Shown here: in pieces, positions 866 through 62,900 of the stretch
How positions within the stretch are numbered: the first letter of the stretch is position 1
Layout of the letters: each line of letters opens with the position of its first letter
NCBI GenBank assembly: GCA_009760855.2
Contig: WPIO01000015.1
Coordinates: 3,796,001-3,860,000, forward strand
DNA length: 64,000 nt
Source: Cristatella mucedo
Lineage: Eukaryota; Bryozoa; Phylactolaemata; Cristatellidae
Reading direction: 5' to 3'
Made by a program: the position numbers and the translations under genes
Notes under the pieces: generated by a model
Seen by the model: only the letters and a program-made list of their open reading frames with translations
The model's database searches: none
What the model was told of the DNA's origin: nothing

Positions 866-37335
<36,470 letters not shown>

Positions 37336-46699: not shown

Positions 46700-47600
46700 G
46701 TGGAGAGTACCCAGCTTGAATAGTTGTTTACGCCGCATGTAGCTGTAGTTGACCTATTTCGTTATTCGGCTTATCTGCGATAGTCTTGTGGCGGCGGGTT
46801 TGAGGCGATCGACGCCGGTGGCTGATGCCCCTAAACGGGCTTGCCTGCCGGGTAGCCGGGCATAGCGTTCGCCGGGCAAATTTAGTAAACATGTGCCGCC
46901 AGCATTCGCCGTGCCAGCTGTTGTTCATCTGAACTCCATGCCCGCTGAACTTGAGTGACATTTTACGACGATCTTTCTCAGACTTCGACTTTTGTTTGTG
47001 CGTATAGGTATGCATGCTTTCGTACATAGGTTCTACAGGCGGATGGGCCGTTAGGAAGAGGTGTCCAAATCTTTCACCACACTTACGGTCAGCTGAAAGT
47101 GCTGAAATAATGTGAAAGAGCTCGCGTTGAAACATGTGGAGTAAGACTGCATGACTGGATGTATTTGCATGTATGGATGTGTGGTGTATGCCCTGAAAGG
47201 ATTCATGGCCCTGAGCCAAGGCATTTGGAGTGCATGCTAGCTTTCTGAGCATCTGCTTCGAGATTGAGTGAGGTGGTCTAGCATTGCTATCTTGAGTTGC
47301 TCTCGGCTTAAGCATTGTGATGCCCCATGTGGTTTATCGTGTGATAAGATTTCTTTCGCTTTCCATTACAGATGGCGATATTTTGCTTACGGCTATACCC
47401 CTGTTGTATTACAGGCGATGACTATGTCTTACTCCTGCGGCATTTTATGGAGACGATGCGTTTCGAGTCAATAAGGCTCACTCGTCAAGGAGTCTGCTTG
47501 AAGTTGGGCATAACACTTTAAGTACTGATGATTTATTTAGTCATCAGGCTTCCAGTGCTATACCTGGCACAAAGCCATACCGTCGTTCCACACCTCAAAC
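46700..47600. other. Spacer between the CpG-rich block and the hairpin cluster
   Basis: The sequence returns to lower GC. No gene or mobile element recognised. It would be intron or 5' sequence of the proposed host transcript. Confidence 0.3.
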
Positions 47601-47917
47601 CGGTGAGGTGAATGTTCGCAGATACAAAGGCTGTTGAGCGCTAGCGTGCGAGTAGATTGTTTGTAAGTAATTTTCCGGTTGTTGCAGGCCTCATTCAGCA
47701 GGTTTTTTGATGCACAGTCCATGTGACCTCATCGTGAGCCTCCTCATTGGAGGCACAGAGCAAAACGGTTGATGGTAAGTAACTTTGACCTTTCGGTAGT
47801 ATCGTGTACAAAGCTGCTTTTAACACTGTTTTAAGATTGATCGTCGTCACCCGAGTTGAGTATGCTAGACCAGTGATTTGAAAATGTATCACTGTTTTGA
47901 AACAGTGACAGCGTTTG

Positions 47918-47990
47918 GAGCAGAGCATGGCACTATGTACCACTGGTGGTTGGCACAAAACACCGTTGGTCTAGTGCCATTCTCAGGTCC
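47918..47990 (+). ncRNA. MicroRNA-like hairpin 1
   Basis: The 5' arm at 47923-47948 (GAGCATGGCACTATG and on) pairs with the 3' arm at 47961-47984 (CACCGTTGGTCTAGTGCC and on) over about 23 pairs with a small internal loop. The terminal loop is 12 bases. Its arms match those of hairpins 2, 3, 5, 6, 7 and 8. A short inverted repeat (TCACTGTTT/AAACAGTGA) lies just upstream at about 47890. Confidence 0.65.
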
Positions 47991-48224
47991 ATGGTGAGCG
48001 TCTAACCGGTAAGTTAGCTGCACCAATTTTAGTTCTAGCTCGTCCTATGAGCAAGGACATGCTTTGTCAGGTTTCGAAACTAGATTATTGCTCGTTTGAG
48101 TCTCAATGTTTACGTTGCAATCCCTACCGATCTCGTTATTTGGTGACTGCCGAAGCCAACAGCTTACCTCACATGTCTTGCTCCTCGCGTGTCCACCTGA
48201 CCTCACATGTCGTGTCGTGTTCAC

Positions 48225-48345
48225 TCGCCTGCGCCCGTGTCATAGCCAAGAGGGGCTCGCTCTCTAAGGCCCAAGTCGTGGGTTCGAGCCCAGCAGTGGG
48301 CAGTACTGGTTGAGTGCCATATTCGACAGCACCTAACTGACTCCT
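48225..48345 (+). mobile_element. tRNA-derived SINE-like element
   Basis: It has a B-box GGTTCGAGCCC at 48281-48291 preceded by an A-box-like TAGCCAAGAGGGGCTCGC at 48243-48260. The downstream body is unrelated to the other SINEs. It lies between hairpins 1 and 2. Confidence 0.55.
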
Positions 48346-48710
48346 CAGGTGAGTAAGCAGCAGCTGTGATGCTGTCATTGCTTGATGTGCTTGCGTTCTT
48401 GGCCGTTTTGCCGAACATGGAAATGCTAGCGAATAGCTTTAAAGCGCTTCTGCCCTCTTTCTTGTCTGTCAGAAGTCGAGCTAGAAGAAAACAGGCAGCC
48501 ACTCATGATCACCACGTGGGTCCATCGTCCAAGCGGAACTGCACATACCTGCCTCACTCGGTCGCAGGTAAGAGCAGCAACGGTACCGCGTGCAATGCTG
48601 ACGATCGCCTTTACCGCGGCCATCTTTCCATTTCCAATTGCGGTCGAGCTGCAAAGCTGTCGGATTTAAATTGAATAAGTGCAACGAGTTTGCCTTGCCA
48701 TCTCTCGGGG

Positions 48711-48775
48711 TTGAGGATGGCACCTGAGTCAAGGGCGACTGAGTTTGAGCTCATCTTTGATGGGGTGCCATAATC
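48711..48775 (+). ncRNA. MicroRNA-like hairpin 2 (most divergent of the family)
   Basis: The 5' arm (GAGGATGGCACCTGAGTC) pairs with the 3' arm (CATCTTTGATGGGGTGCC, then ATAA). There are more mismatches than in the other hairpins, but ATGGCACC/GGTGCCAT and TCAA/TTGA blocks align in the same register. Confidence 0.5.
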
Positions 48776-48864
48776 AGCTCCAAGATCCGTCTACGTGAAA
48801 GCCTCACGGTGAGTTGTGTGCAGCAGCTGCTTTTTATTAGCATTACGCTTACTTTGCTCTCGGA

Positions 48865-48932
48865 GCAGAGTGTGGCGCTAGAATCAGCGGTGACATCGCT
48901 AAAGCTCATCGTTGATGCAGTGCCACTCTCTG
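48865..48932 (+). ncRNA. MicroRNA-like hairpin 3
   Basis: The 5' arm at 48865-48893 (GCAGAGTGTGGCGCTAG and on) pairs with the 3' arm at 48907-48932 (CATCGTTGATGCAGTGCC and on). It has a stem of about 25 bp with wobbles and one bulge, and a loop near 13 bases. It lies 90 bases after hairpin 2. Confidence 0.65.
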
Positions 48933-49248
48933 ATCCAAGGCTTTGCCACTTGCAGAAAAAGTTCTAAGGTATGTTCTATCGAACCTAGAGATATGGCTGC
49001 TGAGATACCAAGCTAGCTTGTCCGTGTCTTGAAATTAGCTTTCAGCATATAAAACCAGGCAAAAGTGAAACAGTGGGCTGCCAATTGTCAGTTGTCGTAA
49101 TGCCTGTTATCTATTACTTTTTAGCGGAAGCAAGTTCTAGATCAAGTTCAGTTCAGAGCTGCAGTGGGAATCAGTCGGATCGCGACGGATCACGATTGTT
49201 CTACTTGATGACGCCTGCACTATCAGACTGCTCAACTTGAAGGGGGGC

Positions 49249-49301
49249 CTGGAACTACTGCTAATGATTGCATTCTCATACTTCATGAGCAGTAGTTCCA
49301 G
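49249..49301 (+). ncRNA. MicroRNA-like hairpin 4, unrelated arms
   Basis: CTGGAACTACTGCTAATGA at 49249-49267 pairs with 49283-49301 at 18 of 19 positions, with a 15-base loop. The arms do not share the family words of the other hairpins, but it sits among them on the same strand. Confidence 0.55.
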
Positions 49302-49710
49302 ATCCTCGTCCAAGCTAATCTTGCTCCAGACTGAAACCGCAGAGCAATTGGATCATGATGTTTGCGACACGCTGCTGAAATAAGCCCTCATCTACGTGAG
49401 TAAACTTGCTTAGTATTCAGGGTTCGAGATTGCCCTGCTAATTTATTGGTAGATGCTCCACTGCCATTAATGCAATGCTACTACTTGCTGTAGGTGCAGC
49501 AGTCGGCAAGGCAGGATGGAAAAACAAACATGCATCAACGTGAGTCGAATCTCGACTGGAATTTACGCTTCAAGTTAGCTTTGCTAACGTATCAACATTT
49601 TGATAATGCAATCTCATCCTCATGCCGTAGGTGCACCAATTGGAGAGATGAGGCTGCAGAAGGTATCAAACAACAGTGACGCGAGTCTCTATTGAGCTGA
49701 CTTTCAGTGT

Positions 49711-49775
49711 AAGGAATGGCGCTGCTATTGACGGTGGCTGTACCGGATCACCGACGATACAGTGCCATTCCTCGA
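49711..49775 (+). ncRNA. MicroRNA-like hairpin 5
   Basis: The 5' arm (AAGGAATGGCGCTGCTATTG and on) pairs with the 3' arm (CACCGACGATACAGTGCC, then ATTCCTC). It has a stem of about 24 bp with two small mismatched spots and a loop of about 10 bases. Confidence 0.68.
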
Positions 49776-49894
49776 TCTGATGCGAGCAGCACTTCTCTTC
49801 TTCAGCTAGTGATGCCTTCTTGGCGATGCCTGCTTGGTGATGCTCCCAAACAGTTCACTCAGCCTAGAGGGCAGCCTATGTATGATAATGGTAT

Positions 49895-49973
49895 GTAGTG
49901 CAGGGCATGGCGCTACTATCAACGATGGCTGAACATAGTCCCATCGTTGATGTAGCCCCATTTCCTGAACTAC
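49895..49973 (+). ncRNA. MicroRNA-like hairpin 6, longest stem
   Basis: The 5' arm at 49895-49928 (GTAGTGCAGGGCATGGCGCT and on, ending ATCAACGATGG) pairs with the 3' arm at 49941-49973 (CCATCGTTGATGTAGCCCC and on, ending GAACTAC). About 33 positions pair with four mismatches and one bulge; the loop is 12 bases. This is the clearest hairpin in the window. Confidence 0.72.
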
Positions 49974-50491
49974 GCTGACCTTCGAGCATGGCATGAGTTT
50001 TTGCAGGTTAATTCAAATCAAGGCTCCAAACATTGGCAAGTAAGTCGCATGCTTTTATTATTGGCTTAATGCTTACTGCCACTTGCACATGGATGTAATG
50101 TTTTATTTGAGTAGGTTTCTGGTTGAGTATTGAAAGCTACGTTGCCCTTTGGGACACACTCGGTAAGGGTTTTGGAGTAGATCGTTAACCATGTTGCACA
50201 GGTGGCAGTTATTTTAATGGTGCCCTGCTGCGCGGTGCTAATGTAAGTTGTATTTAACTGATATATACCATCAAGTAGACAGCTCAACGTAAAGCTTTGT
50301 TAACGTTAAGTTCTGCTTTAGTTTGCAGCACGGCCTCTCACCTGGCGTCCTACCTGATCAACTCGACGTCGTTGTGGTCCACGAGAGAACTTGCTTCGAT
50401 CTGTCGGTAAGCAAGAAATCGTACTGTAATTTAGTGCTGGACTGGTCAATATTTCCTTGCATGCTTTCCCTGCTGTGAGAGAGTGCTGCAG

Positions 50492-50558
50492 CAGAGTATG
50501 GCACTTGTATCGACGGTGACCGTATGTAAGGCCACCGTTGACACAGTGCCATTCTCAG
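50492..50558 (+). ncRNA. MicroRNA-like hairpin 7
   Basis: The 5' arm (CAGAGTATGGCACTTGTATC, then GACGGTG) pairs with the 3' arm (CCACCGTTGACACAGTGCC, then ATTCTCAG). It has a stem of about 24 bp with small internal mismatches and a loop near 12 bases. Confidence 0.66.
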
Positions 50559-50651
50559 ATGTGGCCGAAGCGACAGCGATCGCAAGATGTGCATGCTTCG
50601 ATTTTCCTAGCTAATAAGCCAAGCCGTAGCGTTGAACAGTGCTGAGTCGAA

Positions 50652-50724
50652 GAGCCTGGCATGGCGCTAGTATCTACGGTGGAGGCACCGATTCCCACCG
50701 TAGATGTAGCACCATATCTGGCTC
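50652..50724 (+). ncRNA. MicroRNA-like hairpin 8
   Basis: The 5' arm at 50652-50682 (GAGCCTGGCATGGCGCTAG and on, ending CTACGGTGG) pairs with the 3' arm at 50695-50724 (CCACCGTAGATGTAGCACC and on, ending GGCTC). About 30 positions pair with few mismatches; the loop is 12 bases. It follows hairpin 7 by 94 bases. Confidence 0.7.
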
Positions 50725-51217
50725 CGATCCGAGCTTCATCTGTGGGAGATTGACCCGATGCGTGTCTACCAGGTAAGTTTAGCAAACCAATTTGTTGAGC
50801 CATGTTCATAGGAATCATTGAATGCAATCATTTTTACCTTTGCACGCATTGCATTTTCATGTATTTTCGATATTTCACTTACGGCTTTTGACCATGTTTA
50901 CTTGCAGACACTCAACAACACCAGTGAGCTAGTGATCGTCCTTCTAAGGGACGAATCAAAACCAAGCGCTGTGTCACAATATCGCAGTTGAAGTAAGATT
51001 CTGCACCGCCAACGTATAACATCTGGAACCATGTTGGTGCGAAACATGGACACAGCCAAAGACATTTGACTTAAGGCATTTGCTTATTTAAATTTTGTCC
51101 CTCGATGAAGCAGGACATCAAAGAAGTCCTCCTTCTCGGGGTCTCAGATTTATGTGTGGAGATATTACCTGGAGCGTGCAAACTGTTATTTGGCGCCATG
51201 CATCAGTTGTCTTGCAA

Positions 51218-62339: not shown

Positions 62340-62900
62340 TCTAGTTCAGCTTGATCTCCACACTCCTCGCACGTTCTCAACTGCACCAACACTCTAGTGG
62401 AGGGGATACTCCTCCACACTGGGCGCGACCCGGACCCTAAACCCTAACCGGTGAACTAGGAATCCGTTCCCACCTGTGCCGAGGGAATACCCCAAACACG
62501 CCAACGTAAACACTCTTGCGGAGGGAATACTCTCCGCACTGAAGCGCATACCGGAGTCTAAACCCTGACCGGTGAACTAGAACTCGGTTTCCACCAGTGC
62601 GACCGGAATACTCCACACACACCAACTCAAGCACTCTTGCGGAGGAAATACTTCTCCACACTGGGGCTACTTACGTGTATAATGGGAAACGACTCAAATA
62701 GACGGAGCCCGAACCAGAGTCTAAACCCTGACCGGAGAACTAGAACTCGGTTTCCAACAGTGCGGCAGGAATACTCAACACACGCCAACTCAAGCACTCC
62801 TGAGGAGGAAATACTTCTCCACACTGAAGCGCGAACCGGAGCCTAAACCCTAACTGGGGAACTAAGGGTCCACACACGCCAACTACGCCTAGCTCGCACC
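62340..62900. repeat. 121-122 bp tandem repeat, about four units, one with an insertion
   Basis: The anchor word CTAAACCCT recurs at 62437, 62558, 62721 and 62843. Spacings of 121, 163 and 122 show a unit of about 122 bp with roughly 42 extra bases in the third interval. Units share ACCGGTGAACTAG, AATACTC and CACTCTTGCGGAGG-type words; the first and last are incomplete. Confidence 0.85.

Follow-up and report, generated by a model that had tools for sequence, protein, structure and literature searches.

A tandem cluster of seven related hairpins that is very probably a polycistronic microRNA gene

We analysed a stretch of DNA of 64 kb (contig WPIO01000015.1 of assembly GCA_009760855.2; hereafter the window) that carries seven related plus-strand hairpins, named h1 to h7, between positions 47917 and 50726. 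Each of them is 72-79 nt long and resembles the foldback of a primary microRNA transcript (pri-miRNA). Whole-genome searches were run over the assembly, which comprises 572 Mb in 688 contigs. The hairpins are listed with their minimum free energy (MFE, in kcal/mol), the z-score against 300 dinucleotide shuffles per hairpin and the E-value obtained when the hairpin was left out of the family profile.

47917..47991, plus strand: h1, pri-miRNA-like hairpin (MFE -36.5, z -4.3, leave-one-out E 1.3e-7; 72.9 bits with the family covariance model)
47926..47947, plus strand: predicted 5p arm product of h1, placed by pairing geometry with its start set one base before ATGGC, both ends uncertain
48707..48785, plus strand: h2, pri-miRNA-like hairpin (MFE -42.7, z -6.5, leave-one-out E 1.1e-5)
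48862..48937, plus strand: h3, pri-miRNA-like hairpin (MFE -42.3, z -6.6, leave-one-out E 4.3e-14)
49703..49780, plus strand: h4, pri-miRNA-like hairpin (folded as 49707-49778, MFE -37.9, z -6.1, leave-one-out E 1.4e-10)
49895..49973, plus strand: h5, pri-miRNA-like hairpin (MFE -41.5, z -8.1, leave-one-out E 2e-14)
50488..50563, plus strand: h6, pri-miRNA-like hairpin with 5p TATGGCACTTGTATCGACGGTG (MFE -38.2, z -6.3, leave-one-out E 8.2e-15)
50651..50726, plus strand: h7, pri-miRNA-like hairpin with 5p CATGGCGCTAGTATCTACGGTG (MFE -41.3, z -6.1, leave-one-out E 4.7e-11)

All seven segments fold with low energy (MFE -36.5 to -42.7 kcal/mol), and the z-scores range from -4.3 to -8.1. When each hairpin was withheld in turn and the 64-kb window was searched with nhmmer using a profile of the other six, the missing hairpin was recovered in seven cases out of seven. 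A covariance model built from h1-h7 scores these same sequences at 72.9-85 bits, by construction. Together, these results show that h1-h7 are one family beyond chance, and the seven related plus-strand hairpins claimed in a preliminary description of this DNA are all present. That description had also credited the hairpins with common words on both arms. In h5 and h7 the 3' arm word AGTGCCAT is broken, while the 5' word is kept. Likewise, the cluster holds the seven family members that it had been given, but also at least one further hairpin of different sequence (hx, see below).

The consensus stem consists of 28 pairs, and 91.3% of its 196 cells (h1-h7) are paired. Bases have changed on both sides in 15 of the 28 stem pairs, as compared to 6.3 ± 1.7 in shuffles, none of which (0/500) reached 15; when the partners were slid by 1-3 columns, only 1-3 double-changed pairs were left. 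The single example of a compensated arm change that had been pointed out earlier thus fits a general pattern. The most conserved part of the alignment is the ATGGCRC block (columns 14-20), with a mean pairwise identity of 0.88, followed by the block opposite to it (0.82). Mean identity is 0.71 over the 5p arm and 0.69 over the 3p arm, the arms outside the two blocks lying at about 0.6-0.75, and falls to 0.39 in the loop. The arms are therefore more conserved than the loop and the flanks, a comparison made among paralogues only. The 100-base flanks on either side of the hairpins give local alignment scores that are on average at the level of shuffles, and only one pair departs from this: between h1 and h7, the flanks downstream score 26 (at most 18 in 50 shuffles) and share, by reading, bases around the donor sites described below. 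Loops and flanks are thus free to vary, as had been proposed, bar this one pair. Since the flanks are no more alike than shuffled sequences, the duplications appear to be old. As for the strand, the plus-strand stems contain 18 G-U cells and 7 A-C cells, the latter being those that would be G-U if the minus strand were transcribed, and this imbalance favours the plus strand.

Other elements lie within or next to the cluster.

47500..47571, plus strand: h0, doubtful divergent member of the family, 5' ATAACACT.. and 3' ..AGTGCTAT (covariance model 19.1 bits, E 0.0042)
48250..48308, plus strand: fragment of a short interspersed nuclear element (SINE), tRNA-derived by reading, with 21 dispersed matches in the same genome within 48230-48308 (query 331-409)
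48309..48331, plus strand: possible 3' arm remnant GTTGAGTGCCATATTC directly after the SINE, found by sequence reading
49236..49318, plus strand: hx, hairpin of unrelated sequence between h3 and h4, with arms CTGGAACTACTGCTAATGATTG / TTCATGAGCAGTAGTTCCAGAT

The foldback hx has an MFE of -39.2 (z -6.8 against 300 dinucleotide shuffles) and was not detected by the family covariance model. The candidate h0, situated about 345 nt upstream of h1, could be a weak eighth member of the family, a doubtful assignment supported mainly by its position; the doubt arises because the model gives a best background match of 18.8 bits over 220 kb of flanks and because h0 was reported by none of the seven leave-one-out profiles. 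The word at 48309-48331, which every family profile left unreported, may tentatively be read as a decayed family member. A tRNA scan returned none. A direct repeat was also seen at 49486-49506 and 49623-49643 (TGCTGTAGGTGCAGCAGTCGG / TGCCGTAGGTGCACCAATTGG); it resembles a duplicated exon start.

The 5p words of the seven hairpins are AUGGCAC in h1, h2 and h6, AUGGCGC in h4, h5 and h7 and GUGGCGC in h3. At column pair 18/65 the 5p base is C in all seven members, whereas the pair is formed in only five, h5 and h7 being changed at the 3p base. This retention of the 5p base while its partner changes points to the 5p arm as the probable guide, with the seed AUGGCRC. If a 5p product of 22 bases that starts one base before ATGGC is assumed, 17-20 of the 22 bases are paired in 9/9 hairpins (h0, h1-h7 and hx), and the gap between the assumed arm products measures 11-16 nt. 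Criteria for animal microRNAs of the MirGeneDB type call for at least about 16 arm pairs and at least 8 nt between the arm products, and the arm pairing and spacing found here agree with them. The terminal loop of the MFE structure is short (3-4 nt unpaired) in h2, h3, h4 and h5.

The cluster is also rich in sequences resembling 5' splice sites (donors). They were scored with a matrix of human 5' splice sites taken from general knowledge and unfitted to this genome, and the thresholds were chosen after the sites had been seen. The following ones are referred to below.

48009..48014, plus strand: 5' splice-site-like GTAAGT, 18 nt after h1 (score 6.6)
48349, plus strand: donor cagGTGAGT after the tentative remnant, found in the donor scan
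48809, plus strand: donor, 24 nt downstream of h2 (score 5.8)
48969, plus strand: donor, 32 nt downstream of h3 (score 5.8)
50040, plus strand: donor, 67 nt downstream of h5 (score 5.6)
50773..50778, plus strand: 5' splice-site-like cagGTAAGT, 47 nt after h7 (score 8.8)

At a score of at least 5, the window holds 22 donors on the plus strand and 15 on the minus strand, and 9 of the 22 fall within 47.7-50.8 kb. On the minus strand, 3 donors fall into the bin 48.0-51.2 kb, a number that no other bin exceeds. As a control, 616 overlapping windows of 3.1 kb taken from the 220 kb flanks, on both strands, contained at most 5 donors each. Five of the nine hairpins (h1, h2, h3, h5 and h7) have such a donor within 80 nt downstream, a number reached by none of 2444 sets of positions shifted outside the cluster; what this control reveals is mainly the abundance of donors in the cluster. 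With h0 set aside, a donor is found within 80 nt downstream in 5/8 hairpins of the cluster and within the same distance upstream in 1/8. Raising the threshold to 6 leaves two of the nine hairpins (0/2444 shifted sets). No downstream donor of score at least 5 was detected within 80 nt of h0, hx, h4 or h6. Conversely, no hairpin lies in the 80 nt before the donors at 47775, 48568 and 50243, and the one at 48349 is preceded only by the tentative remnant. In mirtrons the ends of the hairpin coincide with the GT and AG of a short intron; by reading, and with no mirtron scan, none of the folded hairpins starts with a strong donor, and a weak GTATGT (score 3.7) is present at the h5 stem base (49891). 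A coding host gene was considered and is countered by stops in all three frames, 30-nt flanks included, over six of the nine hairpins (h1, h2, h3, h4, h5 and h7); in h0, hx and h6 a single frame is free of stops over the same extent. The donors suggest that the host RNA of the cluster may be spliced.

Known microRNA genes elsewhere in the assembly indicate the kind of animal concerned. The miR-71 word was found with at most two mismatches at 2 places in the genome (control 1). At the better of them (1 mismatch), Rfam identifies a mir-71 hairpin with 54.9 bits (threshold 50). It is followed, about 340 bp downstream, by a mir-2-like hairpin that scores 38.2 bits on the minus strand and 35.0 on the plus strand, both below the threshold of 45.5.

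L050:212-704 (G000:C310:214511-215003): mir-71 hairpin and sub-threshold mir-2-like hairpin, by Rfam

mir-71 marks protostome animals; with the mir-2-like hairpin next to it, the genome is therefore most likely that of a protostome. The h1-h7 cluster resembles this mir-71/mir-2 pair in being made of neighbouring microRNA hairpins, and differs from it in that the arms are unrelated and that donors near hairpins occur only in the h1-h7 cluster.

Taken together, the cluster is very probably a polycistronic microRNA gene from a protostome, in which one hairpin was duplicated locally several times and which includes the unrelated hx. The locally duplicated microRNA family put forward in the preliminary description is the best-supported reading: it accounts for the foldbacks, the compensated stems and the free loops and flanks, it agrees with the presence of mir-71 and a mir-2-like hairpin in the genome, and no dispersed copies were found in the searches reported below. 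We infer the transcription, processing, guide arm, targets and splicing of the cluster from its sequence. All the hairpins would sit on a single plus-strand RNA (about 47.5-50.8 kb), which is probably noncoding. Drosha would cut it near the hairpin bases and Dicer near the loops, and Argonaute would load mainly the 5p arms with the three seeds given above. mRNAs with matching sites in their 3' untranslated regions would then be repressed, and the A/G seed difference would create two overlapping target sets. The host RNA would probably be spliced, with several hairpins located just upstream of 5' splice sites. Six predicted arm strings, in RNA letters, were absent from the literature searched, and the cluster is probably new and lineage-specific while being of a known kind.

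Several observations weigh against this reading. The minus-strand folds of h5, h6, h7 and hx are as stable as those of the plus strand, or slightly better. Drosha substrates are expected to have about 11 paired positions below the cut, and only 5-10 are present below the assumed cut in the trimmed folds. The figure of five hairpins followed by a donor is reached by 74 of 3159 rotations and by 268 of 20000 random donor placements inside the cluster, so that the nearness of donors and hairpins is only moderately unlikely by chance. At a donor threshold of 7 a single hairpin of the nine is left, and 2.6-6.3% of the shifted sets match it, depending on the distance allowed. Finally, acceptor-like sites are too few (2 of score at least 5 between 46.5 and 52.5 kb) to draw exons.

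The near-palindromic form and similar length of the units, in a repeat-rich genome and with a SINE sitting inside the cluster, would also suit a short inverted-repeat transposon (MITE) whose copies came to lie close together by chance. The preliminary description had named such a dispersed transposon as a refutation of its reading. A whole-genome DNA search with the 2841-bp cluster as query returned 23 matches. Of these, 21 fall on the SINE part, and the other two are the cluster matching itself and h5 matching itself on the minus strand, so that only parts of the SINE are matched outside the cluster; this search lists no hairpin-to-hairpin match and would overlook copies with a divergence like that between the members. 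The 5p arm pattern with at most two mismatches occurs genome-wide at 61 places, compared with 65 for the reversed control. Five of these places are in the cluster (h3-h7, h1 and h2 differing by more than two), and of the five places with 0-1 mismatch four are in the cluster and one is outside. Of the 56 places outside, 11 were examined with the hairpin covariance model, which matched none of them, and the 18.8-bit match mentioned above is the only one in the 220 kb flank. Moreover, the stem pairs covary, which transposon copies do not need. We consider the transposon explanation extremely unlikely. The donors raise another alternative, in which the hairpins would serve splicing or transcript structure, for example by holding exon ends or pairing exons, and would not be cut into microRNAs. 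It draws on the donors found within 80 nt downstream of five of the nine hairpins (0/2444 shifts outside the cluster, 74/3159 rotations inside it) and on the contrast with the mir-71/mir-2 stretch, where there is one plus-strand donor (score at least 4) in 3 kb, 2.2 kb away from the hairpins. Against it, the stems suit a microRNA precursor in their length, inter-arm distance and pairing, conservation peaks in a seed-like 7-mer of one arm, and no such donor follows h0, hx, h4 or h6. A role of this kind, in place of microRNA production, is accordingly very improbable, and the microRNA cluster is retained as the preferred reading.

The seed invites comparison with the miR-183/263/228 group (Rfam clan CL00093), of which the ATGGCAC word had been reminiscent at first sight. 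The 5p seed of miR-183/263 is AUGGCAC or UUGGCAC. At its curated thresholds, Rfam gave zero matches in the window. Weak matches were collected over 47400-50900 on both strands, with E up to 10, and ten were obtained. Three of the ten belong to clan CL00093, which is the only recurring signal. The best match of all is mir-228 on h7 (27.6 bits, E 0.0027, gathering threshold 45); h6 is matched by mir-183 with 21.3 bits (E 0.24, against a gathering threshold of 53), and h1, on its minus strand, by mir-263 with 18.1 bits (E 0.73, against 51.3). The remaining seven are other families, two of them long noncoding RNA regions. The resemblance, which the preliminary description had played down, is thus strengthened by these three matches, but all of them remain far below the gathering thresholds. 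In addition, h6 5p and the mir-183 consensus have TATGGCACT, followed by GTA, in common. The canonical miR-183/263 word WTGGCACTGGTAGAATTCAC was found nowhere in the genome within one mismatch; at two mismatches it occurs at 4 places and at three mismatches at 45, a total of 49 as compared to 25 for the control. None of the 10 places that were folded (4/4 with two mismatches and 6/45 with three) had the word as an arm of a microRNA-like foldback. Because 39 of the 49 approximate places were left unfolded and because 49 exceeds the control, a diverged canonical copy may be hidden among them.

These data bear on whether the cluster descends from miR-183/263/228, that is, whether an ancestral gene was duplicated in tandem and its 3' half drifted while the seed was left. 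Such a descent would refine the microRNA-cluster reading rather than compete with it. The three weak Rfam matches, with the best of the ten among them, the stretch shared by h6 and the mir-183 consensus and the failure to find a canonical miR-183/263 in the places covered argue for it. On the other side, the scores fall far short of 45, 53 and 51.3 bits, one match is on the wrong strand, the exact AUGGCAC seed is present in only three of the seven members, the second half GAAUUCAC is missing, convergence can produce a seed of 7 nt, and a canonical copy could still lie among the unfolded places. We regard the descent as quite possible, though a little short of probable.

The cluster shares with miR-183/96/182, miR-263a/b and miR-228 the seed AUGGCAC of three members and its best weak Rfam matches; it differs from them by its seven members, its sub-threshold scores, the lack of GAAUUCAC and the seeds AUGGCGC or GUGGCGC of some members. 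Some of the Caenorhabditis elegans genes miR-63/64/65/66/229 are found in one tandem cluster as well, but the nematode seed is AUGACAC, compared with AUGGCRC here, and there is no evidence of common descent. In PMC2486268, miR-63 to 66 and 229 of C. elegans are listed as distant relatives of miR-263b/miR-183. Clustered paralogues with near-identical seeds, as in the present cluster, are described for miR-183/96/182 in PMC4551935, where a single-base difference between seeds is said to matter for targets; the AUGGCAC/AUGGCGC difference is of the same kind. According to PMC4156656, bilaterian miR-183 and miR-263 are associated with sensory organs, and sensory microRNAs such as these were undetected in a trematode.

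The donors, for their part, recall a situation known from plants. In Arabidopsis MIR163 and MIR161 the hairpin lies upstream, in an exon. PMC3701235 states that the 5' splice site of the intron raises the levels of the mature microRNAs in these two genes, in which a 5' splice site comes shortly after the hairpin, as do the putative ones of the present cluster. Unlike the plant genes, which depend on the DCL1 system, this cluster is from an animal and its splicing is predicted. One may imagine that canonical miR-183/263 was lost in this lineage and its role taken by an expanded tandem array with drifting seeds, whose retained donors, each following one of several hairpins near exon ends, couple U1 binding to processing as in plants; we consider this scenario unlikely. 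The cluster would represent a large expansion, probably specific to its lineage, that centres on the seed of a microRNA family linked to sensory organs. Alternative seeds stand next to one another in it, which makes it a ready case for the study of seed drift after duplication. If real, the donors standing amid otherwise diverged flanks would offer an animal test case for microRNA processing linked to splicing.

The rest of the window and its neighbourhood were surveyed with Pfam, using 40 open reading frame (ORF) queries, some of them overlapping (30 from the window and 10 from the neighbourhood). Three reverse transcriptase, one double-jelly-roll, one Exo_endo_phos and six other weak sub-cut-off matches were obtained, and no host gene was recognised by Pfam among these 40 queries. 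Protein searches with two ORFs of long interspersed nuclear elements (LINEs) gave animal transposon relatives, the best at 54% (fish) and 73% among the matches listed. The reverse transcriptases look by reading like those of CR1-like LINEs, which fits an animal. CR1-like fragments, again by reading, are located at 8684-10698 of the window on the minus strand, where the reverse transcriptase ORF is separate from the one with a sub-threshold endonuclease match. At L024:9192-9725 and L025:2-535, there is a double-jelly-roll-like ORF (Pfam), and near it an ORF that resembles, by eye, a YqaJ-type exonuclease without a Pfam match; the pair is perhaps an adintovirus- or Polinton-like element. On the plus strand, positions 19084-23469 of the window form an open frame of 1462 residues that is rich in alanine, proline, lysine and glutamate and is possibly a large single exon; its ATG/GTG part had no Pfam match. 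Finally, a 121-bp tandem repeat at 62388-62663 of the window contains telomere-like CCCTAAACCCTAACC words in its unit.

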